In this document: positions 38,071 to 64,000 of the stretch, one piece after another
Position numbering within the stretch: the stretch's first letter is position 1
How the letters are laid out: every line of letters starts with the position of its first letter
Assembly: GCA_905221615.1 (NCBI GenBank)
Contig: CAJNDT010001276.1
Span: 1 to 64,000, forward strand
DNA: 64,000 nucleotides
Direction of reading: 5' to 3'
Source of the DNA: Symbiodinium sp. CCMP2592
Lineage: Eukaryota > Sar > Dinophyceae > Suessiales > Symbiodiniaceae
Position numbers and translations under genes: made by a program
Notes under the pieces: model-generated
What the model was told of the DNA's origin: nothing
Database searches by the model: none
Seen by the model: only the letters and a program-made list of their open reading frames with translations

Positions 38071-38807
38071 GAAAAATGCGACACTGACACTGGCAGCTCA
38101 GACGATGGTGGCCTGCAGGAGCAGGCAGAAACCAAAATCTGGCGTGACACTCTGACAATGGAAGCATTTGACACTCATTCTGTGTGGCCAGTACAATAAC
38201 ACACCCAATGCGCACCCCTCCATGCCTGCTCAAAGTTGACACTGATTTCCAGCTGGTAGGCCTGACATAATAGAAACACGTGACACTCATTCTGTGTGGC
38301 CAGTACAATAACTCACCCAAGACGCACCCCTCCATGCCTGCTCCAAGTTGACACTGATCTCCAAGACGAAGGCCTGCCATAGTGGATGCATTTGACACTC
38401 ATTCTGTGTGGCCAGTACAATAACGCACCCAATACGCACCCCTGCCTGCCTTGTCACAGTTGACACTGATCTCCAGCTGGTAGGTGTGTCAACTTTGAGC
38501 AGGCATGGAGGGGGCCTATTGGGTCCCAACACACACCCTCCATGCCTGCTCAAAGTTGACACTGATGTCCAGCTGGTAAGCCTGACATTAAGGAGCAATT
38601 GAGCGGCCAGGACAATAACGCACCCAATACGCAAACCTGCCTGCCTTCTCCAAGTTGACACTGATGTCCAGGAGGAGGACCTGACTTTAATGGATTGACA
38701 CTCATCGACATCCACTGCACCGTAACTGCTTGTCGACATGGTGACACTTGGCAGAGGAATCATCAACCAAAACAGAGTAGCACCAGCCAGGCGGCGAGCG
38801 GCTCATT

Positions 38808-38868
38808 CAGACCTTGACTCTTCGAGCAGCTTGACGGTCTGTCAAACTGCTCGAGGAGTCAAGGTCTG
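38808..38868. repeat. 61-nt hairpin, copy 1
   Basis: Arms start cagaccttgactc and end gagtcaaggtctg around a small loop; two mismatches. It is the first of four related copies. Confidence 0.75.
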
Positions 38869-39134
38869 AGAGAGCCAGCTGACACTTCATTCCATGACAA
38901 AGCAGACGGTAAGCCTGACATAACGGAATCACTTGACACTCGTTCTGTGTGGCCAGTACACTAACGCACCGAACACGCACCCCTCCATCCGTGCCTTCTC
39001 TAAGTTGACACTGATGCCCAGGAGGAAGACCTGACTTTAGTGAACTGTCGTCGACATGGTGACACTTGGCAAACTTAAAGGTATCATCAACCAAAACAGA
39101 GTCATAGCACCAGCCATGCGGCGAGCGGCTCATT

Positions 39135-39195
39135 CAGACCTTGACCACTCGAGCAGCTGGACGGTCTGTCCAACTGCTCGACGAGTCAAGGTCTG
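39135..39195. repeat. 61-nt hairpin, copy 2
   Basis: Same layout as copy 1. The inner arm is ctggac pairing with gtccaa, where copies 1 and 3 have cttgac pairing with gtcaaa, so both sides changed together. About four mismatches. Confidence 0.7.
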
Positions 39196-40120
39196 AGCGA
39201 GCCAGCTGACACTTCATTCCATGACAAAGCGAATGGTAAGCCTGACATAATGGAAACATGTGACAATCATTCTGTGTGGCCAGTACAATAACGCACCCAA
39301 TTCGCACCCCTCCATGCCTGGACACTGATTTCCACCTGATAGGCCTGACATAATGGAAGCATGTGACACTCGTCATTCTGTGTGGCCAGTACAATAACGC
39401 ACCCAATTCGCACCCCTCCATGCCTGCTCCAAGTTGACACTGATTTCCAGCTGGTAGGCCTGACATAATGGAAGCATGTGACACTCATTCTGTGTGGCCA
39501 GTACAATAACACACCCAATGCGCACCCCTCCATGCCTGCTCAAAGTTGACACTGATTTCCAGCTGGTAGGCCTGACATAATAGAAACACGTGACACTCAT
39601 TCTGTGTGGCCAGTACAATAACGCACCCAAGACGCACCCCTCCATGCCTGCTCCAAGTTGACACTGATCTCCAAGACGAAGGCCTGCCATAGTGGATGCA
39701 TTTGACACTCATTCTGTGTGGCCAGTACAATAACGCACCCAATACGCACCCCTGCCTGCCTTGTCACAGTTGACACTGATCTCCAGCTGGTAGGTGTGTC
39801 AACTTTGAGCACGCATGGAGGGGGCCTATTGGGTCCCAACACACACCCTCCATGCCTGCTCAAAGTTGACACTGATGTCCAGCTTGTAAGCCTGACATTA
39901 AGGAGCAATTGACCGGCCAGGACAATAACGCACCCAATACGCAAACCTGCCTGCCTTCTCCAAGTTGACACTGATGTCCAGGAGGAGGACCTGACTTTAA
40001 TGGATTGACACTCATCGACATCCACTGCACCGTAACTGCTTGTCGACATGGTGACACTTGGCAGAGGAATCATCAACCAAAACAGAGTCATAGCACCAGC
40101 CAGGCGGCGAGCGGCTCATT

Positions 40121-40181
40121 CAGACCTTGACAGCTCGAGCAGCTTGACGGTCTGTCAAACTGCTCGAGGAGTCAAGGTCTG
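40121..40181. repeat. 61-nt hairpin, copy 3
   Basis: Lies in the second 1.31-kb block and matches copy 1 except for gacagctc in the left arm, which is not matched on the right (gaggagtc). Confidence 0.7.
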
Positions 40182-40446
40182 AGAGAGCCAGCTGACACTT
40201 CATTCCATGACAAAGCAGACGGTAAGCCTGACATAACGGAATCACTTGACACTCGTTCTGTGTGGCCAGTACACTAACGCACCGAACACGCACCCCTCCA
40301 TCCGTGCCTTCTCTAAGTTGACACTGATGCCCAGGAGGAAGACCTGACTTTAGTGAACTGTCGTCGACATGGTGACACTTGGCAAACTTAAAGGTATCAT
40401 CAACCAAACAGAGTCATAGCACCAGCCAAGCGGCGAGCGGCTCATT

Positions 40447-40507
40447 CAGACCTTGACAGCTCGAGCAGCTTAACGGTCTGTCAAACTGCTCGAGCTGTCA
40501 AGGTCTG
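40447..40507. repeat. 61-nt hairpin, copy 4
   Basis: The left arm has gacagctc and the right arm gagctgtc, so the pairing lost in copy 3 is restored here by a change on the other side. Confidence 0.7.
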
Positions 40508-40570
40508 AGCGAGCCAGCTGACACTTCAGCCATGACAAAGCGAATGGTAAGCCTGACATAATGGAAACAT

Positions 40571-43245
40571 GTGACACTCATTCTGTGTGGCCAGTACAAT
40601 AACGCACCCAATTCGCACCCCTCCATGCCTGCTCCAAGTTGACACTGATTTCCAGCTGGATAGGCCTGACATAATGGAAGCATGTGACACTCATTCTGTG
40701 TGGCCAGTACAATAACGCACCCAATTCGCACCCCTCCATGCCTGCTCCAAGTTGACACTGATTTCCAGCTGGTAGGCCTGACATAATGGAAGCATGTGAC
40801 ACTCATTCTGTGTGGCCAGTACAATAACGCACCCAATTCGCACCCCTCCATGCCTGCTCCAAGTTGACACTGATTTCCAGCTGGTAGGCCTGACATAATG
40901 GAAGCATGTGACACTCATTCTGTGTGGCCAGTACAATAACGCACCCAATTCGCACCCCTCCATGCCTGCTCCAAGTTGACACTGATTTCCAGCTGGTAGG
41001 CCTGACAAATGGAAGCATGTGACACTCATTCTGTGTGGCCAGTACAATAACGCACCCAAGACGCACCCCTCCATGCCTGCTTCAAGTTGACACTGATTTC
41101 CACCTGATAGGCCTGACATAATAGAAGCATGTGACACTCATTCTGTGTGGCCAGTACAATAACGCACCCAATTCGCACCCCTCCATGCCTGCTCCAAGTT
41201 GACACCGATTTCCAGCTGGTAGGCCTGACATAGTGGACGCATGTGACACTCATTCTGTGTGGCCAGTACAATAACGCACCCAATTCGCACCCCTCCATGC
41301 CTGCTCCAAGTTGACACTGATCTCCAGCTGGTAGGCCTGACAGAATGGAAGCATGTGACACTCATTCTGTGTGGCCAGTACAATAACGCACCCAATTCGC
41401 ACCCCTCCATGCCTGCTCCAAGTTGACACTGATTTCCAGCTGGTAGGCCTGACATAATGGAAGCATGTGACACTCATTCTGTGTGGCCAGTACAATAACG
41501 CACCCAATTCGCACCCCTCCATGCCTGCTCCAAGTTGACACTGATTTCCGGCTGGTAGGCCTGACAGAATGGAAGCATGTGACACTCATTCTGTGTGGCC
41601 AGTACAATAACGCACCCAAGACGCACCCCTCCATGCCTGCTCAAAGTTGACACTGATTTCCAGCTGGTGGGCCTGACATAATGGAAGCATGTGACACTCA
41701 TTCTGTGTGGCCAGTACAATAACGCACCCAATTCGCACCCCTCCATGCCTGCTCCAAGTTGACACTGATTTCCAGCTGGTAGGCCTGACATAATGGAAGC
41801 ATGTGACACTCATTCTGTGTGGCCAGTACAATAACGCACCCAATTCGCACCCCTCCATGCCTGCTCCAAGTTGACACTGATTTCCACCTGATAGGCCTGA
41901 CATAATGGAAGCATGTGACACTCATTCTGTGTGGCCAGTACAGTAACGCACCCAAGACGCACCCCTCCATGCCTGCTCAAAGTTGACACTGATTTCCAGC
42001 TGGTAGGCCTGACATAATGGAAGCATGTGACACTCATTCTGTGTGGCCAGTACAATAACGCACCCAATTCGCACCCCTCCATGCCTGCTCCAAGTTGACA
42101 CTGATTTCCACCTGATAGGCCTGACATAATGGAAGCATGTGACACTCATTCTGTGTGGCCAGTACAATAACGCACCCAATTCGCACCCCTCCATGCCTGC
42201 TCCAAGTTGACACTGATTTCCAGCTGGTAGGCCTGACATAATGGAAGCATGTGACACTCATTCTGTGTGGCCAGTACAATAACGCACCCAATTCGCACCC
42301 CTCCATGCCTGCTCCAAGTTGACACTGATTTCCAGCTGGTAGGCCTGACATAATGGAAGCATGTGACACTCATTCTGTGTGGCCAGTACAATAACGCACC
42401 CAATTCGCACCCCTCCATGCCTGCTCCAAGTTGACACTGATTTCCAGCTGGTAGGCCTGACATAATGGAAGCATGTGACACTCATTCTGTGTGGCCAGTA
42501 CAATAACGCACCCAATTCGCACCCCTCCATGCCTGCTCCAAGTTGACACTGATTTCCAGCTGGTAGGCCTGACATAATGGAAGCATGTGACACTCATTCT
42601 GTGTGGCCAGTACAATAACGCACCCAATTCGCACCCCTCCATGCCAATTGCTCCAAGTTGACACTGATTTCCGGCTGGTAGGCTTGACAGAATGGAAGCA
42701 TGTGACACTCATTCTGTGTGGCCAGTACAATAACGCACCCAAGACGCACCCCTCCATGCCTGCTCAAAGTTGACACTGATTTCCAGCTGGTGGGCCTGAC
42801 ATAATGGAAGCGTGTGACACTCATTCTGTGTGGCCAGTACAATAACGCACCCAATTCGCACCCCTCCATGCCTGCTCCAAGTTGACACTGATTTCCAGCT
42901 GGTAGGCCTGACATAGTGGAAACATTTGACACTCATTCTGTGTGGCCAGTACAATAACGCACCCAAGACGCACCCCTCCATGCCTGCTCAAAGTTGACAC
43001 TGATTTCCACCTGATAGGCCTGACATAATGGAAGCATGTGACACTCATTCTGTGTGGCCAGTACAATAACGCACCCAAGACGCACCCCTCCATGCCTGCT
43101 CCAAGTTGACACTGATTTCCAGCTGGTAGGCCTGACACAATGGAAGCGTTTGACACTCATTCTGTGTGGCCAGTACCATAACGCACCCAATGCAAACCCC
43201 GTCCAAGCCTGCTTCAAGTTGACACTGATCTCCAAAAGGTGGGCC
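40571..43245. repeat. 112-bp tandem array, about 24 units
   Basis: Units start tgacactcattctgtg and are 112 bp long, about 24 in a row, with starts at 40571, 40686, 40798 and so on to 43152. Each unit has two TGACACT motifs 68 and 44 nt apart. A variant unit near 41549 recurs near 42672, with the same neighbours, giving a higher-order period of ten units (1123 nt, including a 3-nt insertion). Since 112 is not a multiple of three, an open frame passes through three units (336 nt) before meeting the one stop, so the repeat gives many 111-residue frames on the minus strand; I do not treat these as genes. Confidence 0.95.
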
Positions 43246-43523
43246 TGAGAAGGGCAGGCAATGACAGACAGTTAAAAACAAAAGCACATGGCGGAAGCAG
43301 GCACTGACACCTGCAGTTTCTTTTCAATTGCCGAATGACGCTGACTTTGACGGCAAGCTGATTGACTCTGGCGTTTTGCAAAGAATAGCGGACCCCGTTT
43401 GACACTGAATCATACTATTCGACAATGTCAATGACGATGTGACACTGGGTCCTGCCCTGCTGGTACCTGAAACAAAATTCCAGCACGTGACTCTAAAATC
43501 GACACGATGACACTGACTGACAC

Positions 43524-43716
43524 TCACTGGTCTTCACCAGACGCAATGACAGCTGTGTCTTCCATGTCAGAAGCAAAAAGCGTGGCCGGGGGAGTCTTTG
43601 ACTCTCCGACCCTATCCTTGGTGCTGACAGTGACACTGATTTCCTTGGCAAGATCTGGGTCCGTCTTTGCGAGCGATCGTTTGACCACTGACTGGGTCTC
43701 CATGACCAGCGCTCGC
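43524..43716 (-). CDS. Terminal exon of an unknown island gene
   Basis: After GGGCAG the minus strand encodes KRALVMETQSVVKRSLAKTD and ISVTVSTKDRVGESKTPPAT and ends at a TGA (43526-43524). No domain recognised. It is followed directly by heptamer-rich sequence and the 112-bp array, which may be in the 3' part of the same transcript. A second frame is also open, so frame choice is not certain. Confidence 0.4.
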
Positions 43717-43749
43717 TTCCTGCCCAGGATGAGGGCAGAAAGATGTTAG

Positions 43750-44175
43750 GATGTTCAAAATAAAACAGACATCAACACGACTGCAAGGTGCAATTTGACC
43801 TATCATGTTATACAAAGACAACCGAATGCAACTGAATGTAAACGACCTCATTGAAAACCACGAACTGACATATATATATATATATACAATATTGTAAACA
43901 TTGTGATAATTATTGTAAAACTTAAAAGTTGGCATGTTAAATCCTGATAAGTGTTGCTTATTCATAATAAATAAGACTATATTGTACTCAATATTCTGTT
44001 TGACAAAAGTACTTTAAAAAATATGTAATAATATATGACAATTCAATGTCTAGAATATTTATTATGGCCAGTTATTGTTCTTAGCCGACTTGTTTGCTGC
44101 TAGCAAAAAACGACTATTACTGTTCACCATCTTTACTAAACTAGACACTCGTGGACTTAATAGTAATTATGATAC
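43750..44175 (-). other. AT-rich intron-like stretch without heptamers
   Basis: Very AT-rich, with a short (TA)n at about 43870-43886, no coding signal and no TGACNCT. It begins at a GT donor after CCAG (44176) and is followed by an acceptor near 43717, so it is probably an intron. It shows the sharp exon/intron contrast in the island. Confidence 0.55.
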
Positions 44176-44745
44176 CTGGCCTGTTTTCCTGACTCTTCGA
44201 CAGGATGGGGCGGAGATCCAAGAATTCCTCGGACGTGAGCCTGACCCTCACAAACTGTGACTTGACCTCCGTGGCATGGTCGAGGAGAGCATTCACAGCT
44301 TGACTCTGGCCCGTGAGGACAGAATAGCCCACAAAGCATGACGTCTGCGGAACCACATCCAGGCTCAGCTGACGACTGGAGTGGTGGAGCAAGACTTCGG
44401 ATGGCCATGACAACTTTGCAATACAACAATTGCAACCGAGAACACCTTTGGTCTGGAGTCGCCAGGCCATGCCAGCATCTGACACTGATTCGAACAAGAC
44501 GATGTTGTCATGACCCTCCACACAGTAGGTCTGTTCGTGACTCTTGGTGTTTGTCTTCATGAAGTTGAACATTGTGAAAAAGTCTGACGACTGTGGAGGC
44601 CATTTTTGACACTCCTTTATCATCACACAGTAGTAGGTGAAGGAAACGTCGTTCTTGTCCATGACACTTTGCCTGATGGAGTGCTCCGAAACCACTTGAC
44701 ATGCTCCTGTGACGTTCCTTGCAAACTTGACGCTGGAGAAGATAC
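44176..44745 (-). CDS. Exon of an unknown island gene
   Basis: From a CCTGAG acceptor to the donor CCAG|GTATCA the minus strand is open for 190 codons (NDVSFTYYCVMIKECQKWPP, YCVEGHDNIVLFESVSDAGM, LTSEEFLDLRPILSKSQEN). Composition is that of a folded protein. I recognise no family. Heptamers occur in all three frames. Confidence 0.5.
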
Positions 44746-44825
44746 CTCAGGGTGTCACTCAGAGATGACACTGAGGATGAATGGTACAGGAATGTTGTTG
44801 ATTGGTAAGTCAGGTCCAGTATAAA

Positions 44826-45265
44826 CTACAGTCTTTCAAAAAGAGACATGTTTAGAAACTTCTCGAGGATGACACTGCTGCAGTAGCAGCACATCGAACT
44901 GAACACAAATGGAACACTCCCAAACCGAGTCAAGTGACAGCTCATGACACTGAGCTTCGTCTGCTGCTCCGGGCCCCCACCAAGAACGGTCAGGGCACGG
45001 TTGCAAGTGACGCTGCCACCCCCCGATGGAGTCAAGATGCCATCACAGAAAGCCCTCTGGGCCTCCACCCCCAGTGTGATGGACAACATGACTCTGGAAT
45101 CGCGAAATGTCTGCAGAGCACGGGGGGTTACTGACTCTAAGGTTGGCTCGTGACACATCGACGTTGAGAATCCCAAGCGTCTCGCTGACACTGACAGGCT
45201 GTCCTCCGGGTTTGATATTTTCGGAAGGTTGAGGAAGTTACTACCTTCTGTTTGGTGAAGTTGAC
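44826..45265 (-). CDS. Exon of an unknown island gene
   Basis: Open on the minus strand: SNFLNLPKISNPEDSLSVSA, VMLSITLGVEAQRAFCDGIL, CNRALTVLGGGPEQQTKLSV. Ends in a TAG at 44826 or at a donor before it. Unknown family. Confidence 0.4.
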
Positions 45266-45414
45266 TCTGATTTATAGTATTGCTTTTTTGTGCATACACA
45301 AATAACAACAGTAACAACAATTAGCTACTATGGTAGCTATTATTTTGAATTATTACACTGGTCTTAGTTTCAGCGAGTTGCCTTCTGACAACTCCTAAGT
45401 TGAACCTGAAGTAC

Positions 45415-45803
45415 TTACCTGTGTGTCTGTCGTTGCTGCAGGATGCTCAAGACATTTAACCCTGCTGATAGCAAACCCTGTAAACTCTGACAGGGCACGT
45501 AGAAAGCAGCCAGCTCACTCTGGTGGAAAACCGTCCCTTTCTTGACACTGAAGTCCGCCGCAGTGGGGACAAAGTCTCTCTTGGAAAGACAGGCGTAGAA
45601 GGTCGCCATGACTCTGCAACTGACAACAAGGGATCAGAAAGGGACACGGACGGCAATGACACTGACAGACTGGAGCCAAGAAGCCGCAGTGACCACTGGC
45701 ATTTCATCTTGACAGACCAACCAATGACAACTGCTTTAGCAACCACCTCAACTGCTGAGCCTCGGACAGCAATGGCAATGATCGGACCATGGAAACCTGG
45801 CAA
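45415..45803 (-). CDS. Exon(s) of an unknown island gene, one frame change
   Basis: The first part (GFHGPIIAIAVRGSAVEVVA, down to about 45620) and the second part (MATFYACLSKRDFVPTAADF, 45609-45415) are in different frames, so a short intron or a frameshift lies between. The second part starts with an AGAGTCATGG context: the heptamer overlaps the ATG. Unknown function. Confidence 0.4.
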
Positions 45804-46016
45804 CTGACAGCTGCACAGTCAGTGCTTGGCAGTGTTCTGACTCATCTTTTTTGAATGGCGCTGCAGCTCTTGACGCTCAGCAGCATGCATCCGTGTCTAG
45901 TGACACTGAACGCACGGGCATTCTTATTAATTAAAGTTGGATTGACACTGCCACTGCCACACAGGTTCCACATCCCCGGTGGATCCCAAAAGCAGCTCGG
46001 GCTCCAAGTGACACGA

Positions 46017-46364
46017 CTAACACTGGATGATGAAGGCGTTCTTTCGTTCAAGGAACCCTGCGACCTTCTGACTCTGAATCTGTGAAACAGAGCAGGACAC
46101 CTCGACATCACTCTGAGTCTGACTCTGAGTCTGCGAGTCCGAGCATGACATCTGCACATCGCCAGACTGTGGGCGAGGTGTCGTCATAATAATATCATCG
46201 TGACCCTCGGCCTTCGCCTCCGACACTGCACCTTCACCAGAACACTGGGCCTGCTTCTTTGACTCTGCAGCCATTCTCGCATCATACCTGTCGGCACATT
46301 CGATGACCCTGGTGAGGCGGTCTTCCAACGGCTTGGCATTCGCCCACACCTCGGATGATGTCAA
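46017..46364 (-). CDS. Exon of an unknown island gene, Gln/Ser-rich end
   Basis: Encodes EVWANAKPLEDRLTRVIECA and then a Gln-Ser-rich stretch (SDSQTQSQTQSDVEVSCSVS) that comes directly from consecutive AGAGTCA/AGTGTCA heptamers. It shows how the motif shapes a disordered region. Confidence 0.4.
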   Translation of the reverse strand: MTSSEVWANAKPLEDRLTRVIECADRYDARMAAESKKQAQCSGEGAVSEAKAEGHDDIIMTTPRPQSGDVQMSCSDSQTQSQTQSDVEVSCSVSQIQSQKVAGFLERKNAFIIQC

Positions 46365-46690
46365 CTAGCTAGTGTTGTTTATTAACTGTTGCAGAGTAAT
46401 ATCACAACAGTCAGTCATTCCGACCATCAGCTGTAGCTGCTGCTGCAGTTATAACGACGACAAGAACTGTCAGACTAATAATAAAATAATCAGAACAACA
46501 TATTCGAGAAATCATACTCATTCGTCATTGATAGACAGTGAATGACACCTGCTGTTTCACATCGTAAGTACAGACAGACTCTACTATCTTCCCATCACAA
46601 TCAATAAAGCCGGGCACAAATCACATCCACAGTGACAAGCAGATTAGGTCTAAGTCTAAACTCAATAAATATGACTACTGTTAAACGTTA

Positions 46691-46963
46691 CTATCCAGTG
46701 CAAGGAGCTGACACTCGCAACTCGTCACGTCTTCGCCTCAGCCTTTCCACCGAGTATCGCCCTTCGTCCACCCAGTTCGTGATGACTCTCCATCCTTGAC
46801 GCTTCTTATGACTCTGGGCTGGCTCTGACATCCTGCAGACCATCTTGGACTCTAAACGGGCGGTGACACTGTAACTCTGAGAGGCCGAAACAGCAACATT
46901 ATTGTTGTGCACACTGCGACACTGCTGTCGTAAATGACGCAATTCAACCAAGGATTCTGACAC
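46691..46963 (-). CDS. Exon of an unknown island gene ending in a stop
   Basis: Encodes SESLVELRHLRQQCRSVHNN and GWRVITNWVDEGRYSVERLR, ending at a TAG at 46691. Highly charged; no family recognised. It could be the end of a gene whose upstream exons lie at 47-48.4 kb. Confidence 0.4.
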   Translation of the reverse strand: MSESLVELRHLRQQCRSVHNNNVAVSASQSYSVTARLESKMVCRMSEPAQSHKKRQGWRVITNWVDEGRYSVERLRRRRDELRVSAPCTG

Positions 46964-46999
46964 TGCCTGACACTGTCCAAATCATGCCAGGTAAGCCAC

Positions 47000-48480
47000 G
47001 AAGCAATGGAGCTTTGACCCTGGCACGGTTAGCGTTCGTGCGGGGTTCGGCAGGGTTTGTTACATGCTCTGTGCCTGTTGCTGCAAATGAATGACTCTGA
47101 CAATGAATCACAGGTGCACTGTGTCATGAAGCAGCAGTTCAAACCAAGGACAAAACCCCAGGGATTCCTGCTGAATCTAACATGACACCTGTTGCCTGCC
47201 ACATGGGGAAAGACAGAACAGGCCTCGCAACTTCCCCATCGTCTGACACTGACCTCACAGAGAAAGGAGATATAATTGGTGCTGCGTTTTGACACTTTCA
47301 CCCTGAATCATGTCGTCGAAAAGTTAACACCTTCAGCATATTCAGGCTGTGTTCCCAAAGCCGTGCATCAGACACTGAATCTGCATCAGAATGCCGTCTC
47401 ACAACATGACTGACTGAGAAAACTGTTAAACAGAGTGTGCCAGTAACACTGTACTCTTGCATTGGATGCTCCAAGCATACAGGCAATGTTGCTCGACCAC
47501 GATGGACCCATCATGTGACATACCCACAAGAGCAAAGGAGCAACTGTTCGAACGTCTGAGGCTGACACATGCTATTGCTTGCCGGCTTGGGCTGCTTTGC
47601 AGCTTCATCGCCTGCAGTGACTGATGCTCTGAGATACCACTCCGAATGTCCCAGCACACAGGACTGACTCAGCGACAAAGTCAGTGTCATTGTTCGTTAA
47701 ATACTGTTTAACTGTGACTAGTGAATTAAATATTCAGATCTCAGCTCCCTTCTGCAGTTGCGACATGACACTCAGCCCCAGGAAACATGGCAAGCACTTC
47801 CAAGCTGTTTGAGGTCACACTCACCCTCTGGAAGCTGAGCCTTCTGCAAGGCCGAGCAATTGGACCATGACACTGACCTGGATCGGACACAGTTGGTGTA
47901 TGTGTGAGACAATGATTACGACCAACAGTGTCATAGCAATAAATTATACTATTATTGTCTGACACTTCACACGTGCCACAACCATTCAACCGGCATGGCC
48001 TCGCCCAAGGTAGGTCGGTGTTCCAGCTGCTCCTTGGTCTGACAGCTTAGAGGCTTAGAGAGACATGGAACGACTCCACATTGAGGAATCTTGGCTGAAA
48101 CTATTAATAAGTGTCCATAACCCTCCCATGTGTCAAAGACCAGTCTCCTTTCACATAAGAGCCATCAACATATGCAGCAAAAGACAGTCAGTGCCTCAAT
48201 GACACAGTGTGCAGCCTCAGAAAATAGTGGCATGCCAATACGAAGGCCCAGGACTCTGAGACTGCTGCTTTGCCCAGCAAAAGTAGCAGCACTTCGGAGC
48301 CGCAGTATGACACTGACACCTCGGAGATACATGGTCAGGAGGCAGTGCTGTGATCTGAGTGTGCAAGGTGACACTACTGGGCAAAATCTCTCCCGAAGCA
48401 CGCACGACAACCACGGTTTAACAATGCCCCTGCACACTCAAAATAAGCAGGTGTCCTTTTTTCCACAATGACACCTGCCA
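47000..48480 (-). other. Heptamer-bearing stretch with small exon candidates
   Basis: Short open pieces such as QVSVMVQLLGLAEGSASRG near 47880 (followed by a GTGAGT donor) and VSVILRLRSAATFAGQSSSL near 48310 look like exons. Density of TGACNCT is lower than in the larger exons. No assembled gene can be given. Confidence 0.3.
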
Positions 48481-48614
48481 TCTCATGTGGGAAGACCACA
48501 ACGTGACGTCTTCACGTGACACACCCACACTGGCAAAGTCGGCAATGACTCACTGCAGTCGAGCTGTGACACTAAGCCTTCAAGTCAGCAGTGTGACCAC
48601 TGACCCTGACATCG

Positions 48615-50590: not shown

Positions 50591-50599
50591 GTCAACGAT

Positions 50600-51190: not shown

Positions 51191-51194
51191 GTGA

Positions 51195-52817: not shown

Positions 52818-52829
52818 TGAGGACGTGCC

Positions 52830-54247
52830 TTGAGGTCATTCTCGAAATCACACTCCAGGAGGGCACGGAAGAGCTCGCATGACAACTTGCCGGCTTTGCA
52901 AAGATCGCCACTGACTCTCTCCATGGCAGGAATGTCGGCCTTGTTCTCGTTCTTCTCTGACACTTCACCGAGAGTCAGAGTTTCATCTGACATGGAGGCA
53001 TCGACCATTGACCCTGTTTCCAAGGGTAGTGACTCATGAAACCGCAAAGGACTGCTGATCTTCTGCAAGGCCTTCATGATCTTGACACTCTCAGGATTGG
53101 GTGCGCTGCTGTGACCCTGGGACGAAGCAACCTTCACCATGTCCATGACAACTTTGAGAAGGAAGGCCTTGACACATGTGGTCTGTGCCCAGCCACCACC
53201 ACCAGCCTTGTCGATGACTCCTAGGGTGTAGAAGCTGGTGTCGCAGTGCTCCCTCAGGAGTGACACTAAGCAGCTATCCAGACAGAACTGCACCAGTGAC
53301 CCTAACTCTTGTGGTTGCCAACCAAACAATGACAACTGCTTCGAGCATAGCTGTACAAGTCGTGACAACTTGGTGTAGGAGCTGCTCCAAACATCACGGC
53401 CGAATTGACGCTGAATCTGGATCAGGGTCTGCTCTATGCCAGGTGACTCTGTCATTAGGGAGGCCACTTTGATCGCACCCTGCAACATGGTCGTGTTGAC
53501 TCTCTGACCATTGAACTTCACACCTGACTCTTCAAAGCGCTTCAACACAGATGCTTGGCTGCCCTCAGAAGCGATCGCATTGACCCTCTTTGCGAAGGTG
53601 TGGAAGCTATCCGCCAAAGCACCGACCCTGACTCTCTCTGAGTGCTTCAAGGCCTCTATGATTAACTCTTTCTCATCAAGATTGAATGCCCGAATCGTGA
53701 CACTCAAGGCCATTGTGTGGAGCTCCCAGACTCTTGACTCTTCCAGGGGCGGTAGCACAGTGGCCTTTGACTCTTCATCCAAAGCCTGGCCCATGCTCAA
53801 GTACCAAGCGAAAAGCCTGGCTGACCCTGCAATGAGCTGCAACCCTTTAGGCCACACAGGAAGTCGACCGAGATCTTTTGACTCTGCCAGGAACGGGTCT
53901 GAGAAATGCAGCCTGACTCCTGACACTTTCTTGGAGTTGTTGCTGACACTGTGCATCAAGGCAGTCTGAACCTCAATGACCTCTGACACCGAAGGTTCTT
54001 CAAGAAGAAGACGGTTGTGGCCCGGATGACCCTGACCCTGGAGAAACAAGGGAAACGGGTCCAGCCAGTAGATGGATCCACCAGCTTCATACATCGAGGT
54101 TCTTGTGACACTGACACTGCAATTGTCAGGGTTCCACACCTCCTTGTAGTTCGTGACTCTGGCCTTGTCACATGTGATCTCCAAGGGCGGGATGTCATGC
54201 AGCTTCTGGCCATGACTCTGGAGTCGCTCTGGAAGTTGTTGGTGCAC
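52830..54247 (-). CDS. Large island exon of unknown function
   Basis: Begins after the acceptor TGTCAGTGTCAG and is open for about 470 codons (LEITCDKARVTNYKEVWNPD, SARLFAWYLSMGQALDEESK, IIEALKHSERVRVGALADSF, FYTLGVIDKAGGGGWAQTTC). Mostly helical, soluble composition. No family recognised. The acceptor itself is built of heptamer units. Confidence 0.5.
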
Positions 54248-54399
54248 CTGACACTGACACTGACATCAATTGTCAAATCAAACTACAACATAAAACTGAC
54301 ACTGTCTAGATTTGTCAGACGTCTGCGTATAAAATCCCCTAAGAAACACTGGCAAACTAAATCTGTTGCTAATTTCAGAGCCAAGCACAAAGCGAATGA

Positions 54400-54826
54400 C
54401 ACTCTTCATGAAAATGTACGCTCCAGTCGTCTTTGACTCTTCCTCGTCCGGAAGTGCAGGCATGGGCATGCGAGTTGACACTGGTGTGCTCTCCTTTGCC
54501 TTCAACTTTTCCACAGGAATAACCAAATCGTCAACTGGAGGTGACACTTCTGGCTCTTGCTCAGCCATTTTCACTGTCGGTGACGCTGGAGGTGAAGCTG
54601 GCTTCTGTGACCCCTGCTGGGGAGTCGCCTGAGGCCTTGGAGGCAGCTGACTCTTGGGCGATTCGGAAGGCTGCACCAAAGGCTCTTTCTGTTGTGGCAC
54701 TGACCCTGAAGGCTCTTTCAGTTGCAGCACTGACCCTGAAGGCTCTTTCTGCTCTGGCACTGACCCTGTGTCAGGCTTTTTCGGGGCCCGTCTTGGCTGC
54801 ACCACTTTCGGGGCAGGGTTGACCAT
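54400..54826 (-). CDS. First exon of a large island gene, Pro/Gln/Lys-rich
   Basis: Starts at the ATG at 54826 (MVNPAPKVVQPRRAPKKPD). It carries three copies of a ten-residue repeat (GSVPEQKEPS, GSVLQLKEPS, GSVPQQKEPL), each written by a 30-nt DNA repeat that contains one AGGGTCA, then SPPVDDLVIPVEKLKAKEST and ends near ESKTTGAYIFMK. The donor is not certain. If spliced to the exons at 54247, 52817, 51320 and 50590 it would be the N-terminus of a protein of more than 1,500 residues with a C-terminal DNA methyltransferase. Confidence 0.45.
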
Positions 54827-55001
54827 GGCGGATGACACTGACTCTGTGCTAGTGGCTCGAATGATCCTAGATGGCAAGATCTGCGACTCTTTACGTTCTG
54901 GGGTATGCCAATACCTCGATCGTTGGCGCCAACGGCCGACCTATTGACATGTGCAGAACGCATGAGCCAATACCTCAAAGAGCTCAGACAAGTGTTGACG
55001 C

Positions 55002-56484: not shown

Positions 56485-57560
56485 TTAAGCCTCACAATCG
56501 AGATTCGATGAACGGAGCTGTTCCATTTTGACACTGTCATCGACCACAAGAAGATTTGCCTTCCTGACCTCTGCAAAGTCGACCTTGGCCAATTCTCGAG
56601 GACGCTTGTATGTGACGATGGAGGGAATGTCACTGACACCGTCTTTGGTCAAGTCCAGAACCAAATCGTTGTCTCCAAACTGTGGCACTGTAACATGACA
56701 CTGTCCAGAATATTGCTTCATGACACTGCCTCTCCGTAGCGGTGGAAGACTTGGCTTGATTCTGAGCATATTTCTCTGACGCTCCACCTGGCTGTTCTGC
56801 TCTCGGAGGACAGTGACTCTGTGGAAGTCCTGCAATGCCTTGTTCCACTTGGGGTTTTTTTCCATCTTGTGACACTCCTTCCGGTGCACTTCCTTGACAC
56901 TGAACCCGAAAAATGTTTGTTCAGGGGCCTTGCCCGACACTAAAGTTCGGATTCCTGCTCTCTGACTCTGCTGCAGTGCAGCGAAGGTCCCTTTCTTCTT
57001 GACTCTGACAGTGCCCTTGTCAGCTCTCTGCTTGTAGCTTCGAAAGCGCCTGCCATGACGCTGAAGCCACAGGTCAGCACAATCGCGTGTAAACTGTGTG
57101 AACGACAAGGTCTTTGACTCTGACACATCGGCTTCGTTCACACTGTACCCAGGGACATGAATGGGGGTGGCCACCTCTGACTCTTCCTTGGGCCCATCCA
57201 ATCGAAGTTCAAGCAGGTCTGACACAGTAATGCCATCCAAGTCAAGTGGACCCTTTGACACTTGCAGGAAATTGCGCAGCAGACTCAAATCTCTCTCCAC
57301 ACAACATTCCCCGTCCAAGATGGACAGGTAAAATGACACTATCTGAGGGAGTGCATCTGACAATGTCAAATGACGACTGCCTTGCAGTGCAGTGCCAATC
57401 CCAAGGACCCTGGCCCAGGCAGGTCTGTTGTCGTGCTGTTTCGCTGCTTTTGACACTGTGCTAGGATCTGACACCAACTCTGACATGACTCCTTCGAACT
57501 GCTGAAAAGCATCTGAACTGCTGACATTGACAGCTCTTGACCTGAATCTGGAATCCAGCG
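56485..57560 (-). CDS. Second large exon of the transposase-like gene
   Basis: Open for about 355 codons, including YLSILDGECCVERDLSLLRN, LSFTQFTRDCADLWLQRHGR and a basic stretch. It reaches a TAA at 56485, but a GC donor (GTGAG|GCTTAA) lies just before it. ECCVERDLSLLR could be compared to the C-terminal dimerisation segment of hAT transposases, a weak resemblance only. Confidence 0.45.
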
Positions 57561-57624
57561 CATCAAGAATAACTCATGACTGTAAGCTTTAATAATCAAA
57601 GTTTTGGATGACACAAAAAACGGA

Positions 57625-59952
57625 CTAAGCCGATCCAAGGTACAGCTTTTTCAAGCGAATGCGAGCCATCTGCAGAAGTTGCTGCCACGTATCTGACTCT
57701 CCACGATCCAAAGCTCGCTTGGCTTTGTCCCATGACACTAAGTCGAAGACTGTAAACACCATGTGCAGGTCACCAGTGTGGTGGTCGGCATTGACTCTGG
57801 CAATGCAGGCATCAGCAGCAGCGGAAACCGACTGCATGACATCTTGACACTGTTTCTTGGACAAAGGTCCCCACAAATGGTGCAGCTTTCCAGAATAGCT
57901 TACAGCTGACGCTTTCATGGCATTCTGCACAGCCAACAAAGACCATGTGGTTTCATCTGACCCTGTTGCTGAAGCTGGAAGATCTGCGAGCACGTGGCCT
58001 TCTATGAAAAGCTTTGTGACCCTGTGGACAAAGTCGTCTTTCTCCGCTTGACACTTGCTGATGTCGTGGTCGGCAACGTCACAGAAACGAATGACCCTGA
58101 GGAGTTCACAGTGGAAGTCGGCAGACACTCCTGCTGTCAAGACGTGCTTCGCTGTCATTTGCTCAAGGAGTTGCTGACAACTCCATCGCATATTTGGTGT
58201 AAGCCTGACATCTGACGCTTGGTAGGCGAGAAGCAGAGCAATCGGCTCCAGGAGCCGAACATATTGACTCTGTGGCTTAGCACAGCTGTCGAAACGCTGT
58301 TTGGCAAAGCTCAGGGTGCTGATTGCACGCTTGACACTCTCACTGTGCGAAGAGTTAGGCTGACACTCAGCCTGGATCGCTCGGAACTTGAGCTTCCACT
58401 GTTCCGAGTTTTGCAAACTCGGAATGACTCTGCAGAAGTGCTGCCAAAACTCTGCAAACTGACTCTCCATTGTCAGTGGCAAGCCAGCACGTCTGAACTG
58501 ATGTGCCCGGTCTATGACGCTGATCTGGAGGTTCGGCAGGCAAGTTGCTCGCATGACACTCATGCTTTTCTTCATACATTTCGCTCCGTCTGTCGAGCAG
58601 GATCTGACACTCGAGAGGAAGTGTGTCACCAAGTCAAGGTCGACTGACTCTTCATCAAGCACCACGGAAAGCTTCTCAATGCCAACCTTGACACTGTCAG
58701 AAACCTTCACACTGTAGTCTTCTTCCAGATCTTGCAAATCCGTCTCTGACGCTTTTCCATGGTGTGTGAGAACTGCAAGGACGCCGGTGAAGACAGGGCA
58801 GTGTGACTCTTCGGATTCGTCTTCAGAGGACTTCCTCTCGCCAGCAACTGCTCTGAAGCGAATGACCCTGAAGGGGGCCTTGTCATCCAACGACACTGAA
58901 ATAAACTTTGCTGACCGAATGACACTTCGCTTTCGCCTGCGAGTGACTTCTGTCATGATCTGAACCATCTGCTTGTACATTTTTCGCGAGCACTGACCCT
59001 GGCGAAGTCCGATGAACGACTCGGTCCGGGACTGACACTCTGCTTTCAAGAATGACACTGGGCTCTGCACCATCCTCCACGCACGAAGCCAGTCTGCCAA
59101 CTCAGGAACATGACCCTTCAGTCGATCCTCGTCCTCTCGAGGCATCATGACGCTGCAACTGAGAGGCTCATCCGGACACTGCATCATATGCACTGCTCGT
59201 CGGTGCATCTGACACTGCGAGTGCTGGTACAACGCTGACGCTTGCATCTGACTCAGTGCTCGGATCTCATATCTGGCCCATTTGGAATCCCAGCGATGAC
59301 TCTTCCTGCTGCCTGTGACCTTGACACTGAGAGAGCGGGCTCGAAGGGCTGCGCAGGCAGCACATCCGAGACCCCATGGCCCTCCCATTTTCTTGGGTCT
59401 TTCTTGGAGCCATGTGACTCTGACCCTCTTGCCAGCACGTGTCTGCAGAAAAGAGCCGTGACTCTGACACCATTTGACTCTGAATCTCTGGAACCAACAT
59501 CTTGGACAGGACTGATCGAACTCGTCATGACACTTGCCATTGCTTTCTGTCTGGACGCTGACACTGGTGTTGTTGAAAGCTGTCATCTTTCTCTTGGTGC
59601 CATGTGCAGATGCCAGCTTCTGACTCTTGGGTCTGTCCGAGCAGGAAACTTGAAGTGCTGACTCTGCAGCTGCAGCAGAACGAGTTCTGACCATGGAAGT
59701 TGACACTTTGCCAGACGAAGGGAACACCTTGTTGTCGTAACACTTCTGCAGTTTGGAGGGTGCACAATGCGCACGTCTCAGCATGGCAGCGATGACTCTG
59801 ACTCTGCTGTTTGTTCTGAAATGCTCAGTTGCTGACACTTCTTGGAGACACACTGTTTCCAACCCACACCGTGTGCTATCTGAAGAATCCTTTGAATGTT
59901 GACTTTGACTGACCTGAAGCACTGAGAATCCAAATAACTTCAACGGATCCAA
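57625..59952 (-). CDS. Large island protein, possibly RNase-H-like transposase
   Basis: Open for 775 codons to a TAG at 57625; no ATG near the 5' edge, so the true start is in an upstream exon or at a Met about 55 residues in. Features: Cys/His clusters (SCPRCWFQRFRVKWCQSH and CAACAAL, then QHSQCQMHRRAVHMMQCP); AKFISVSLDDKAPFRVIRFR at about residue 355, and SCSTDGAKCMKKSMSVMRA about 110 residues later, followed by VIDRAHQFRRAGLP. The order beta-strand with Asp, then Thr-Asp-Gly-Ala, then an Ala-His resembles hAT-type DDE transposases (D...TDNA...C-x-A-H). The third acidic residue was not placed. It has about 45 heptamers in 2.3 kb. It could also be an unrelated dinoflagellate-specific family. 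Confidence 0.5.
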   Translation of the reverse strand: MDPLKLFGFSVLQVSQSQHSKDSSDSTRCGLETVCLQEVSATEHFRTNSRVRVIAAMLRRAHCAPSKLQKCYDNKVFPSSGKVSTSMVRTRSAAAAESALQVSCSDRPKSQKLASAHGTKRKMTAFNNTSVSVQTESNGKCHDEFDQSCPRCWFQRFRVKWCQSHGSFLQTRAGKRVRVTWLQERPKKMGGPWGLGCAACAALRARSLSVKVTGSRKSHRWDSKWARYEIRALSQMQASALYQHSQCQMHRRAVHMMQCPDEPLSCSVMMPREDEDRLKGHVPELADWLRAWRMVQSPVSFLKAECQSRTESFIGLRQGQCSRKMYKQMVQIMTEVTRRRKRSVIRSAKFISVSLDDKAPFRVIRFRAVAGERKSSEDESEESHCPVFTGVLAVLTHHGKASETDLQDLEEDYSVKVSDSVKVGIEKLSVVLDEESVDLDLVTHFLSSVRSCSTDGAKCMKKSMSVMRATCLPNLQISVIDRAHQFRRAGLPLTMESQFAEFWQHFCRVIPSLQNSEQWKLKFRAIQAECQPNSSHSESVKRAISTLSFAKQRFDSCAKPQSQYVRLLEPIALLLAYQASDVRLTPNMRWSCQQLLEQMTAKHVLTAGVSADFHCELLRVIRFCDVADHDISKCQAEKDDFVHRVTKLFIEGHVLADLPASATGSDETTWSLLAVQNAMKASAVSYSGKLHHLWGPLSKKQCQDVMQSVSAAADACIARVNADHHTGDLHMVFTVFDLVSWDKAKRALDRGESDTWQQLLQMARIRLKKLYLGSA

Positions 59953-59959
59953 AATTACC

Positions 59960-61265
59960 TACTGTTGCGGACGGCTCATTGTCGTATTTTGGCCAAGTGC
60001 CTCCCATTAATGTGTTCAAGGCAGAATTTTGGATCGCGAGACAGGACTTACTCATTATGACATCTCCGCAGCAGCAAATTGCTAAGGCGTCTCTGCTTCC
60101 CCGCTTGTATTCAATTGGAGCAAACCTGGCAGAGGACTATAAATCACAACAGTGCAACCGTGCCAAGAAGGCCTGCTGACCCGCTGGGCATCCGCCGGCG
60201 AAAGGGCTTCAACACCTGAGGCAGTTGGCTGCTCCATGCTATTATTATTAAGGGACTCAAGAATGACAATTTGAATCAGAATTGCTTGACACTGAAATCC
60301 TACTTGTCAAGTCTCAAAGACCCGAAACCCCTCAGCTGTCGAAAATCTCCTGGCCCAATGACACTGGGTGTAGATAGAAACAAGCGGCAGCACACCAACG
60401 CTCGCAGTGCACACCCACACACAGACTGAGCAAGTGGCACTGTGCGGTCAGGCTGACCACCTGTGACTAAAATATTAGTGTGCGACTTGGGTGCGAGTTG
60501 GGTTTTTGCAAAAAACAACACAGTGATCTGACACTTGACCATGGGTAATACTTATACTGACTGTTTCGAAGATCTGAGGAACCGAGGGGATGGGACATGA
60601 ACATGACCTGCCACTTGCCTGCGATAGATGCCCTGCTAGGCTTCGATTGGTACATGCATGCTGCCATGGGGCTCAAGTAAGCCAACATATGCCACTGAGT
60701 TTGACTCTATTTGTTATTGCTGCTGGAATCTAAGGCTTGAGGCTGAAGACAACAAAGACAACTAGTAGTTGTGAGCTCTGGCAGCGAATGGGACTTGCCG
60801 CACAAAGTGCTACTTAGTGGAATTATTGGAAGATTAACTACTAGCGGCGAATGGGACATGCCGCGAACAGGAAAGGACTGTGGCTCTCAATTCGGTTTTA
60901 CACAGGGAAAACTCAGCACAGGGCTATCCACACCAGGTGCTCCAGCTCGCTACCTGGCAAAAGCTTGCAGGCACCCAGCCAAATGGGGCAAGATAAGACT
61001 CTGAATTTCCTGAAACCAGCAACGGCTCCTGAATTATTATATATCTTATTTAATTTAGTGCAGTCAGACGGGGCTCTGGCTGACTCATCACTCATCCACA
61101 GGCAGATCACCACAGGCCTGTCACAGCAGTGGGTCATGTTTGGCAATGAAATGCTGGCTGATCTTAAATTGATATGACTGTCGTGACGATGGCAGCATTC
61201 AGAGCACTGACTGTTTTGACGCTTACTCTGGCAGTCCATCTTGTCTACTAAAAGGGCACCCCATA
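59960..61265. other. Low-heptamer spacer with no firm gene
   Basis: Only four or so TGACNCT in 1.3 kb, grouped at 60288-60700. The minus strand near 60540-60300 has an 80-codon open piece of odd composition. Probably introns and intergenic sequence between the transposase-like gene and the zinc-binding gene. Confidence 0.35.
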
Positions 61266-61281
61266 GCCCAGTGACACTCAC

Positions 61282-61927
61282 CTGCTCTCATGTTCTTCAC
61301 GGTCGTGAGCTTTTTTTCGACTGACACTGCCAAATATTTCTTGCGGCACTCGTCTTCGTCTTTGACACTGGAACAGGCAAACGAGAATGAGACGAGGCTT
61401 CTGACACATCCTGGCAGCTGCTGTCCATGACGCTCAAATCGTTCCACGATTGACATTGCTGAAGCGATGACACTATAGGCAACAGCATCACCGAATAAGC
61501 TTTTCAGCTCAGCAATCTGACTCTCGAGCCTCAACCGCATTGTCTGGTAAATCCCAGTCGTCGCTACTGGGTGTTCTGACACTGCAGAGGAGGCGCCATC
61601 ATGACACTGACTTTCAGAAGAGTGTGCTGGCAAAGGCTCTGACGCTGTCCCACATCGAGGTTCACTCTGCATCCGGGATGTGGTTCTCCCACAAGGTGTC
61701 TTTGCTGACTCTGTCATTGCTGTAGCAGACGGACCAGACCATTGATATTTGACACTGCCCTCAGGCTTGGCATGACCCTCCTGGTCAACTGACACTTTGC
61801 GACGCAGTCTACGGCATGGCTTCTTCTTGTGTCGCCCGCGATGACTACTGCGGCAGCCTTCACAGTAGTTATTCGGCTTGCGCCGAAACGTTCTGGCACC
61901 GCACAAACGGCAGGCAAACCCAGCCAT
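61282..61927 (-). CDS. Small zinc-binding protein (first exon)
   Basis: Starts at the ATG at 61927 (MAGFACRLCGARTFRRKPNN), just after a TTTACAG acceptor-like site; the heptamer AGAGTCA overlaps the start codon (AGAGTCATGG). C-x-x-C then, 14 residues on, C-x-x-C make a probable zinc ribbon, followed by a Lys/Arg-rich stretch (RGRHKKKPCRRLRRK), so nucleic-acid binding is likely. Then a Ser-rich linker and helices (LRLESQIAELKSLFGDAVAY, IVERFERHGQQLPGCVRSLV). It ends at a donor GCAG|GTGAGTGTCA, where the heptamer overlaps the splice site. Later exons not found. Confidence 0.55.
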
Positions 61928-62286
61928 GACTCTGGCTCTGTAAAGCAATGATTTCTTATTATCTGAACTTCTCGAAACTGACACTACTGTAATACGACGA
62001 CTAAGGTACTGACTGGTGACTAGTCATTGAACTTAACTTTGATTGTCTGGCTGTCATTGCACTATGAACACAGTAGCAATACAATGAGATTTAACAGTTG
62101 ACCCGATGTGGTTGTTCTGAGCAACTTCCTGTGTTGTCGTCGTTCTGCGAGCAGGTTTTGCTGACTCTGCTAACGGCCTTCATTGATTGACTGAGCAAAA
62201 TGACACTGAAAGTGCTGAATGACATGACCACTGGCACAGGACAACACTCGCAGGCCCCGCCTCAGGTCTTGCTCCACATCTTCTCG

Positions 62287-62530: not shown

Positions 62531-62581
62531 GTGTCTGGCACATTCGGCCAAGAGATCCTCATAGCCGAATGTGCCAGACAC
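62531..62581. repeat. Hairpin with perfect 18-nt arms
   Basis: gtgtctggcacattcggc (62531-62548) and its exact reverse complement (62564-62581) with a 15-nt loop. It is followed immediately by the CA/CT microsatellite. Confidence 0.85.
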
Positions 62582-62597
62582 CTACCTGGGGGCCAAA

Positions 62598-62618
62598 CTG
62601 CACACACACACACACACA

Positions 62619-62699
<81 letters not shown>
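62598..62699. repeat. (CA)n(CT)n microsatellite
   Basis: About ten CA then about forty CT units. The Leu-Ser or Arg-Glu frames through it are artefacts. Confidence 0.95.
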
Positions 62700-62703
<4 letters not shown>

Positions 62704-62779
62704 CAAGCACTTGCAAGGTGACCCTGCTGCAGACGTTCCTGCCTCTGCCGTTGGCCGGGCCAAGCACCTGCGCAAAGAC

Positions 62780-62930
62780 ACACATCGAATCTGAATCCAT
62801 GTGGTAAATCTTGACTCTGAGAAGTCCGACAGCACACGCACTCGATTTTCATGACTCTCGGCTCTGGTCACGAGACTCCGACACACTGTGGCACATGCCA
62901 AAAAAGTGTAAAAGTGTCCAATGTACAATG
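62780..62930 (-). CDS. Small exon candidate
   Basis: Encodes CRSLVTRAESHENRVRVLSD and FSESRFTTWIQIR with three heptamers. Probably an exon between the Gly/Gln-rich and zinc-binding genes, or of the former. Confidence 0.3.
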
Positions 62931-63277
62931 GTTGACACTAGGAGTGCTCGCTTGTCACCAGAGGATTCCGTGTGCCAGTGTCAGCCAGGTGACTCTGCAA
63001 CTCACCAAGTTCAAGAAGTATGACTCTGACACTGATTAAACATCAGTAGAATCAGAATAGGAGTTTTATTATTTATGGCTGGCTGGCTGACACTACTGCG
63101 TTGACGCTGCGTCTTCCTGCAGCATTTCTAGGTCTTGTATGGCTCTGAACCTTGCCCAGCTGTCGTACCGGCCATATGGCTTTTGCCATTTGGCCTGTAA
63201 CGCTTGTGTCCTTGGCTGCAAGCCGGTGCAAATGACACTCTCACTGGATCTGCCACTGTATGTAAGCATGACACTGA

Positions 63278-64000
63278 CTAACACTCGAGATTGGCATGAT
63301 GTTTTTGCAAACCAAGCAGCATAATCAGACCTGCACGTACATGACCCTTGCGGCCAAACGCCAGAAGATCCCTGACGCTGTTTTTGGTCTCCTCGGAGAA
63401 GGCGATGTCATCCATCATCTCGTCCCTGAGCCAAGAATCAGACAGAAAGGCAATGACTCTGGAATCCACATGACAGGAAAATATGCAGCTAGGCCACATG
63501 ACACTGCGGAAGTCGGTTTCAGTGCGTCTTGACACTGGGTTCGGCCGTGGGAGACGTGGGTAGTCCACGTCTCTTGGGCCCAGACCACGGCCAGCCCCTT
63601 TTGGTCGCTGACCCTTTCCGGCTTGGTTCGGATCGGCCTGGGTCGATGACGCTGCTGCAGCGGCCTGGGACGGGGTAGCTGGCTGACGCTGACGGCTGGG
63701 GTAGTTGAAGTCAGTATTGACACTGTCTTCCCACTCGTGTCCCAGGTGTTGCGGGTCGTTCCTGGGAAAGGATGACGCTTCCCACCAGCGGTTCCATTGC
63801 TGATTCCTCGGGGAGCGCCTGCTCCAGTCGTCCTGACCCTGCTGCGTCTGCTGCTGTGAGTTGTTCTGACTCTGCTGCTGCTGATGCCAGCCCCAACCAT
63901 TGCCTTGACCCTGACCCCAATTCTGCCATTGCTCCTGACCCTGGGCTCGATTTCGCCTGTTGGAGCCTGATCGGTTGCGACCCCGACCCTGTTGGCCGTG
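63278..64000 (-). CDS. Gly/Gln/Asn-rich protein, cut by the window edge
   Basis: Open from the window end for 240 codons to a TAG at 63278. The first 110 residues are Gln/Gly/Asn/Trp/Arg-rich (GQEQWQNWGQGQGNGWGWHQ), then DYPRLPRPNPVSRRTETDFR and a more ordered end (FLSDSWLRDEMMDDIAFSEE). The codons CAG GGT CAG and CAG AGT CAG, giving QGQ and QSQ, each hold one heptamer, so motif and low-complexity sequence are linked. Prion-like or RNA-granule-type composition. The N-terminus lies outside the window. Confidence 0.5.
   Translation of the reverse strand, partial: HGQQGRGRNRSGSNRRNRAQGQEQWQNWGQGQGNGWGWHQQQQSQNNSQQQTQQGQDDWSRRSPRNQQWNRWWEASSFPRNDPQHLGHEWEDSVNTDFNYPSRQRQPATPSQAAAAASSTQADPNQAGKGQRPKGAGRGLGPRDVDYPRLPRPNPVSRRTETDFRSVMWPSCIFSCHVDSRVIAFLSDSWLRDEMMDDIAFSEETKNSVRDLLAFGRKGHVRAGLIMLLGLQKHHANLEC

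Follow-up and report, generated by a model that had tools for sequence, protein, structure and literature searches.

A one-strand heptamer runs through the coding exons of a giant Symbiodinium DNA transposon and is spelled differently in related families

Why should a seven-base word recur about every 50 nt on one strand of a dinoflagellate genome, in all codon phases of protein-coding genes? The question is raised by a 64,000-nt stretch of Symbiodinium sp. CCMP2592 (assembly GCA_905221615.1, contig CAJNDT010001276.1, positions 1 to 64,000 of the forward strand; hereafter the window), in which a first-pass annotation had noticed an island of the degenerate heptamer TGACNCT. The island makes up the greater part of a giant DNA transposon, which begins at 37,933 and extends beyond the end of the contig. 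In this element the word, read as AGNGTCA along the sense strand of the identified genes, occurs about every 50 to 60 nt, nearly always on one strand, protein-coding genes included. Open-access literature searches found no published report of it.

A direct count gave 370 copies of TGACNCT on the plus strand of the window and 15 on the minus strand; the observed 385 compare with 48 on both strands in dinucleotide shuffles of the whole window (maximum 61, n = 100). At and beyond 38,000 the numbers were 358 and 10, with the first island copy at 38,085 and the last at 63,936, and before 38,000 they were 12 and 5, which bears out both the single orientation and the sharp regional limit that had been claimed. 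The 3,968 bases of the contig past the window hold 63 and 1. The 45 or so copies reported between 57,690 and 59,840 were recounted as exactly 45, and 51,490-52,640 is dense as described, although at 23 copies, or one per 50 nt, rather than one per 45. The fifth base is free but unevenly used: in 43,300-64,000 TGACACT occurs 123 times, TGACTCT 86, TGACCCT 37 and TGACGCT 30, against a flank-based expectation of about 1-2 for each form. Within that stretch, 176 copies fall in 10,147 bases of open reading frames (ORFs) and 100 in the 10,553 bases outside them, and 100-base bins with G+C under 40% contain only 4 copies in 21 bins. Amplification of tandem arrays was rejected as the source of the word because 285 of the 358 copies fall outside both main array stretches (38,100-39,800 and 40,500-43,300); the signal thus survives the array control that the first-pass annotation had proposed.

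The word is also not explained by the proteins that it runs through. Nine stop-to-stop ORFs contain 178 sense copies in phases 60/53/65, so that the reported use of all three phases stands. Shuffling synonymous codons within each ORF left 33.8 copies (standard deviation 4.8, maximum 52, n = 300) and shuffling codon order left 7.2, whereas the opposite strand of the same ORFs has 3 copies against 1.95 after synonymous shuffling. Both amino acids and codons have therefore been bent towards the word, and a protein motif, which the annotation had already denied, or a by-product of codon use is rejected by the two shuffles. The features of the element in the window, with lengths in amino acids (aa), are as follows.

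37929 to 37932, no strand: TTGT on the left flank, presumed to be a 4-bp target site duplication, with only its left side on this contig; copies on contigs C236 and C245 show 4-bp duplications
37933 to 37946, plus strand: left terminus CTGGGATGGGCTTT, an imperfect terminal inverted repeat, where homology to the C236 and C245 copies starts
38085 to 63942, plus strand: the 358 directly counted copies of TGACNCT
38169 to 43248, plus strand: subterminal tandem repeats, in 112-bp units and longer blocks, usually with two word copies per 112 bp
48709 to 49854, minus strand: ORF with a weak match to C5-cytosine DNA methyltransferases (PF00145, E 0.0011, below the gathering score)
50033 to 50614, minus strand: ORF that, by its motifs, resembles the N-terminal part of that methyltransferase, with no match in the Pfam and PDB scans
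51456 to 52835, minus strand: ORF-B, 459 aa, of no family, with 27 word copies; found near ORF-A relatives in other families
52781 to 54265, minus strand: ORF of 494 aa with 30 word copies and no homologue in one search
54278 to 54940, minus strand: ORF of 220 aa with 12 word copies
56485 to 57573, minus strand: ORF holding the 3′ exon of ORF-A, with 15 word copies and homology to proteins P0002 and P0004
57625 to 59958, minus strand: main exon of ORF-A, 777 aa, transposase-like and, by eye, hAT-like, with 45 word copies
61223 to 62023, minus strand: ORF with a Cys-rich stretch, seen by eye, and 15 word copies
63278 to 64000, minus strand: end of an ORF, Gln-rich by eye, that continues past the window

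The homologues of ORF-A indicate how the word arises. Of its 45 main-exon word sites, 29, 42, 45 and 45 lie within the span of P0001, P0002, P0003 and P0004, respectively, and 26, 39, 40 and 42 of these align without gaps, while the residues are the same at only 6, 9, 4 and 4. Where P0001 has RIL, SNV and VMV, for example, ORF-A has RVI, SSV and ISV. The word arises by substitution, not insertion, and a small inserted element was rejected as its source because most sites align without gaps. Its spacing was compared with simulated random placement in the two densest of eight stretches. The coefficient of variation was 0.44 in 57,600-59,900 and 0.55 in 51,400-54,950, against 0.97-0.98 in the simulations, whose minima in 5,000 runs were 0.58 and 0.66, respectively. 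The idea that splicing restores even spacing was not supported, since a 243-nt gap at the one ORF-A intron inspected by eye would still measure about 140 after splicing.

The limits of the island were set by its copies. Homology between the window and islands on C236 and C245 of the same genome begins at the same point, 37,932/37,933, which corrects the annotated start of 38,078 to 37,933 and shows that the island is not unique. The pieces on these two contigs are 97.5-99.9% identical to the window, and C243 holds a right-hand part. Comparison of the left ends of three copies and the right ends of three gave an imperfect 14-bp inverted repeat, CTGGGATGGGCTTT and CTGGGCTGTGCTTT, with 12 of 14 positions matched by eye; the right end of the copies reads ...AAAGCACAGCCCAG, and the pairing of CTGGGATGGGCTTT with CTGGGCTGTGCTTT was not listed in a short BLAST of the ends. 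Both copies that could be followed to their two ends are flanked by 4-bp duplications (TATG/TATG on C236, TGAT/TGAT on C245). Inverted ends, target duplications and dispersed copies together identify a terminal-inverted-repeat DNA transposon. The window copy and that on C243 have TTGT in common, yet differ by 49 mismatches over 13 kb and are therefore taken as different copies.

The C236 copy measures 43.6 kb and contains the word 657 times on the plus strand and 15 times on the minus strand. Because a 9-kb stretch of it is doubled around a run of 100 N, the true length of the element is likely about 34.5 kb; the shorter C245 copy also contains 100 N, so neither length was accepted as a true variant. 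The runs of N, and the doubling beside one of them, look like assembly trouble in near-identical repeats.

A whole-genome search with the ORF at 57,625-59,958 gave 638 candidates, of which 58 were scored. All 58 were at least 97% identical to ORF-A; 41 spanned all 777 residues, and among these 33 were 100% identical and 38 lacked internal stops. The first-pass annotation had also proposed a genome-wide count. Triple patterns of the word number 10,752, against 734 for a reversed control, an excess of about 15-fold that fits copies of the element and some satellites and not an even spread. With 145 triple patterns in the C236 copy after removal of the doubled part, about 55 element copies would explain most of the excess. 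Among the first 100 places listed, those on C8 are the element, while those on C1, C2 and C7 resemble satellites. Degenerate TGACTCTATG satellites mimic the word in such counts (C2:1388575-1390187, C7:40388-42609, C266, C296), and locus L147 (C223:131001-137000) carries ATTGACACTGCC-type repeats in both orientations with short palindromes, unlike the one-strand islands. In viral contigs, nearly all triple-pattern matches listed were single per contig and were taken as chance.

Diverged relatives in the same genome were found with P0001, and six loci were taken from that search (C164, C1180, C225, C1335, C569 and C91); C29, C461 and like copies, C4346 and C4984 lay outside the comparison. C164 belongs to the same family, being a 97% identical copy of the window element. 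Of the five separate relatives examined, three retain a word fixed to one strand; they are about 50% identical in DNA, place most of their copies elsewhere and use dialects of their own. C1180 (51% identity) has AGNGTCA 21 times in sense and 2 times in antisense in 1.8 kb, and only 5 of its 19 aligned copies stand at the window's places. In C225 (49%), where 1 of 11 aligned copies does so, AGTGTCA occurs 42 times in sense and once in antisense over 6.5 kb and the other three forms 3 and 1 times, giving 45 and 2 for AGNGTCA; C precedes the word in 41 of the 45 copies, so that the spelling becomes CAGTGTCA. C1335 has AGNGTCA once, whereas AGNGTGA, the strongest one-gap heptamer of the locus at a level reached in none of 300 shuffles, occurs 13 times in sense and never in antisense. 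Its 12 coding copies compare with 2.6 after synonymous shuffling (maximum 8, n = 500), and 3 of 12 aligned copies fall where the window has AGNGTCA. In RNA the three dialects read AGNGUCA, CAGUGUCA and AGNGUGA. Two more distant relatives, C569 and C91, gave no convincing strand-fixed word, a candidate spelling, CTNCGAG (L154), reaching its level in 4.3% of shuffles. An excess of peptides compatible with the word is seen also in P0001-P0004 and P0007 but hardly in P0005, P0006 and P0008-P0010, an indirect sign because homologues share residues by descent.

These results can be brought together in one explanation, which we consider evenly poised between right and wrong. Selection would maintain AGNGTCA at intervals of about 50 nt along the sense strand of the element's ORFs, and in its terminal arrays, as an element-wide self-tag. 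A factor encoded by the element, with a specificity that differs by family, would recognize the tag, most likely on sense RNA, and would coat or mark the transcripts that come from the element, letting them evade silencing by the host or receive selective handling. We infer selection rather than mutation, a factor acting in trans, RNA rather than DNA, and an anti-silencing purpose. That related families use different spellings suggests that the element itself encodes the reader. In its widest form, the proposal is of a giant dinoflagellate transposon superfamily with a strand-fixed heptamer code in its own exons, family dialects, and a co-evolving element-encoded reader on sense RNA that tells the element's transcripts apart from host transcripts and from those made by rival families; this version is tentative and falls somewhat short of an even chance.

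As the substrate, sense RNA has roughly half of our confidence and DNA clearly less. The strand of the word is fixed relative to the identified genes, which counts for RNA. All genes identified by homology read leftward, and in the window part of the element all ORFs above 153 aa lie on the minus strand, the shorter plus-strand ORFs being mostly opposite minus-strand ones; a low-complexity stretch past the window has a 241-aa plus-strand ORF opposite a 304-aa minus-strand one. The absence of helical phasing in neighbour gaps and of any polarity reversal of the word between the element ends was likewise counted for RNA. In four families, the exons of ORF-A hold 106 copies in 8,754 nt and the introns 2 in 733 nt, where 8.9 would be expected (P 0.007), with exon and intron limits drawn from alignments.

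The alternative that survives best, although we think it unlikely, is a self-tag at the level of DNA, in which an element protein would bind double-stranded TGACNCT throughout the element and remove or block silent chromatin marked by 5-methylcytosine or 5-hydroxymethyluracil (5-hmU). VANC targets are typified by spellings particular to each family and by tandem repeats that carry the motif (PMC5735166), and 5-hmU is enriched over repeats in Breviolum (PMC11071213). The dense word in the terminal arrays, the weak C5-methyltransferase match and a slight signal of 10.25-10.5 bases in the pair distances also favour it. However, a double-stranded DNA binder without helical phasing needs no fixed orientation, yet the ORFs hold 178 copies against 3, and the introns, which are freer to change, are poorer in the word than the exons, the opposite of VANDAL.

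Several observations weigh against the sense-RNA self-tag or weaken its support. The arrays at both element ends, which are not known to be transcribed, have a word density close to that of the ORFs. The compared introns are short, mostly AT-richer and perhaps recent. Over all pair distances the periodicity just mentioned reaches 0.07 against about 0.03 in random placement, the pairs not being independent, and in three ORFs the predicted RNA accessibility of the word was not consistently higher than that of other heptamers. Even spacing is not general: the other six stretches had coefficients of 0.34 (4 sites), 0.63, 0.76, 0.83, 0.84 and 1.15 (43,300-48,700). One-base variants of TGACNCT are far rarer than the word in 43,300-64,000, and several have a modest plus-strand excess. 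The C1335 spelling comes from a single locus, over 2 kb, and genome-wide its triple pattern showed no enrichment (1251+1159 against 1258+1321 for the control). Between the window and C164 the fixed positions changed at 1 of 168 and other positions at 29 of 1262 (P 0.25), with the free base changed at 2 of 28, and the idea of strong word conservation in this copy was dropped because the test was not significant. In units of the right-hand array, word columns vary at 0.023 against 0.082 elsewhere, but conservation there was judged weak because variation at the free base is just as low (0.025) and an equally good result came from 3.8% of shifts.

Exon definition by the host, with the word as an exonic splicing enhancer or export signal for a host RNA-binding protein, would share with the sense-RNA self-tag the near restriction to the sense strand, the density in exons and the scarcity in introns. 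We nevertheless find it improbable. The other 38 kb of the window are at about chance (12 and 5 copies), a single host factor would not favour other spellings in related families, and the arrays carry the word as well.

A still poorer prospect is that TGACNCT is the recognition site of the element's own methyltransferase or methyltransferases, by which the element would modify its own DNA. The weak C5-methyltransferase match speaks for it, as does a methyltransferase-like DLTPGSG stretch in ORF-B. ORF-B accompanies ORF-A in related families, lying near it also at the C1180, C225, C2985, C5049 and C1335 loci with 36-41% identity. Strand fixity and exon bias are unexpected for such a site, the Pfam match is under its gathering score, and the putative element methyltransferase ORFs had no PDB methyltransferase match. 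That the word has no function and was spread by tandem-repeat amplification or mutational bias is hardly credible, because, although tandem arrays exist and the element copies are nearly identical, it occupies coding positions of every phase, at sites that align without gaps and have mostly other residues in homologues, its positions turn over between families at comparable density, and its spacing in the densest ORFs is more even than random.

We take the transposase-like ORF-A to be hAT-like by eye, from a Cys/His pattern and conserved acidic residues; no Pfam hAT match was obtained for the ORF-A exons, P0002, P0004 or P0005. Its predicted structure was of low confidence (mean predicted local distance difference test score 51.4) and gave only weak fold matches, none at E 0.001. 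A homology search found relatives in Symbiodinium natans, CCMP2456 and CCMP2592, of which P0004 (CCMP2592) matches contig C1180 at 99-100%; no phage sequence related to the ORF-A DNA was found, and no viral or prokaryotic homologue of its protein. No polymerase, integrase or capsid was matched by Pfam in 20 of the element ORFs and three homologues, a scan in which short exons may be missed.

Some further features of the locus were noted. The left array contains a hairpin-like inverted repeat, GACCTTGAC...GTCAAGGTC, at 38810-38866 and in its repeats. In the right-hand array at C236:41001-46421, short, very AT-rich inserts without the word lie inside array units, and comparable AT-rich segments among the genes resemble introns. 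To the left of the element, minus-strand ORFs at 5694-7960 and 35221-36735 look like ordinary host genes, with matches to ankyrin repeats and a U-box and one to a PUB domain that falls just short of the cut-off.

The element bears on the question of how a mobile element distinguishes its own nucleic acid from the host's. A tag written into coding sequence against both codon and protein constraint points to a strong selective demand, and, since the spelling changes between families that are about 50% identical in DNA, tags and readers can be exchanged and compared across them. If true, the proposal in its widest form would amount to an RNA-level self/non-self code inside protein-coding genes, of which the open-access literature searched gave no example. 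For dinoflagellates, whose chromatin is unusual and whose transcription is little controlled, a giant transposon is now defined that exists in many nearly identical copies. If the reader were found, it would form with the tag a programmable pair for recognizing RNA or DNA. Gene finders and evolution tests applied to element genes could go wrong if they take no account of the word.

Among known systems, bacterial DNA uptake signals, Chi and KOPS are over-represented short words in coding sequence, the latter two strand-biased. Here the word runs at about 15 per kb with one polarity over a mobile element and no reversal between its ends, and it is not a whole-genome word, as uptake signals are in naturally transformable species, the rest of the window being at about chance and the genome-wide excess being sized to the element copies. 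The likeness to uptake signals drawn in the first-pass annotation thus holds for a dense self-tag, while nothing observed points to DNA uptake itself. hAT transposons make 8-bp target duplications, unlike the 4-bp duplications in two of two copies here, and the present element is likely about 34.5 kb long with several ORFs.

Mavericks (Polintons) are annotated in a Symbiodiniaceae genome, with high 5-hmU (PMC11071213). They resemble the element in size, inverted termini and protist hosts; the element differs in its 4-bp duplication, and the scanned ORFs gave no polymerase, integrase or capsid match. The Symbiodinium retrotransposons SymbioLINE-Dnmt and SymbioDIRS-Dnmt3 carry DNA methyltransferases (PMC5890265) and offer a parallel for an element-borne cytosine methyltransferase, here a weak match. 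The present element has DNA-transposon termini and target duplications and no reverse transcriptase match in the scanned ORFs.

The closest known system in logic is VANDAL/VANC of Arabidopsis. VANC21 binds YAGTATTAY in noncoding regions of VANDAL21 and VANC6 targets carry AGTTGTCC/AGTTGTAC, the targets having spread by tandem repeats (PMC5735166, PMC10398659). In the present element no VANC homologue came to light, although no search was aimed at one. VANC motifs are noncoding, introns included, and absent from exons, whereas the word here is strand-fixed in coding exons in all phases, denser there than in introns, and present in the arrays too; because exon placement and strand fixity differ, membership is not claimed. 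The two systems nevertheless share a short motif for each transposon family, another spelling in related families (here AGNGTCA, CAGTGTCA and AGNGTGA), tandem repeats that bear the motif and, putatively in the present case, a reader encoded by the element itself.

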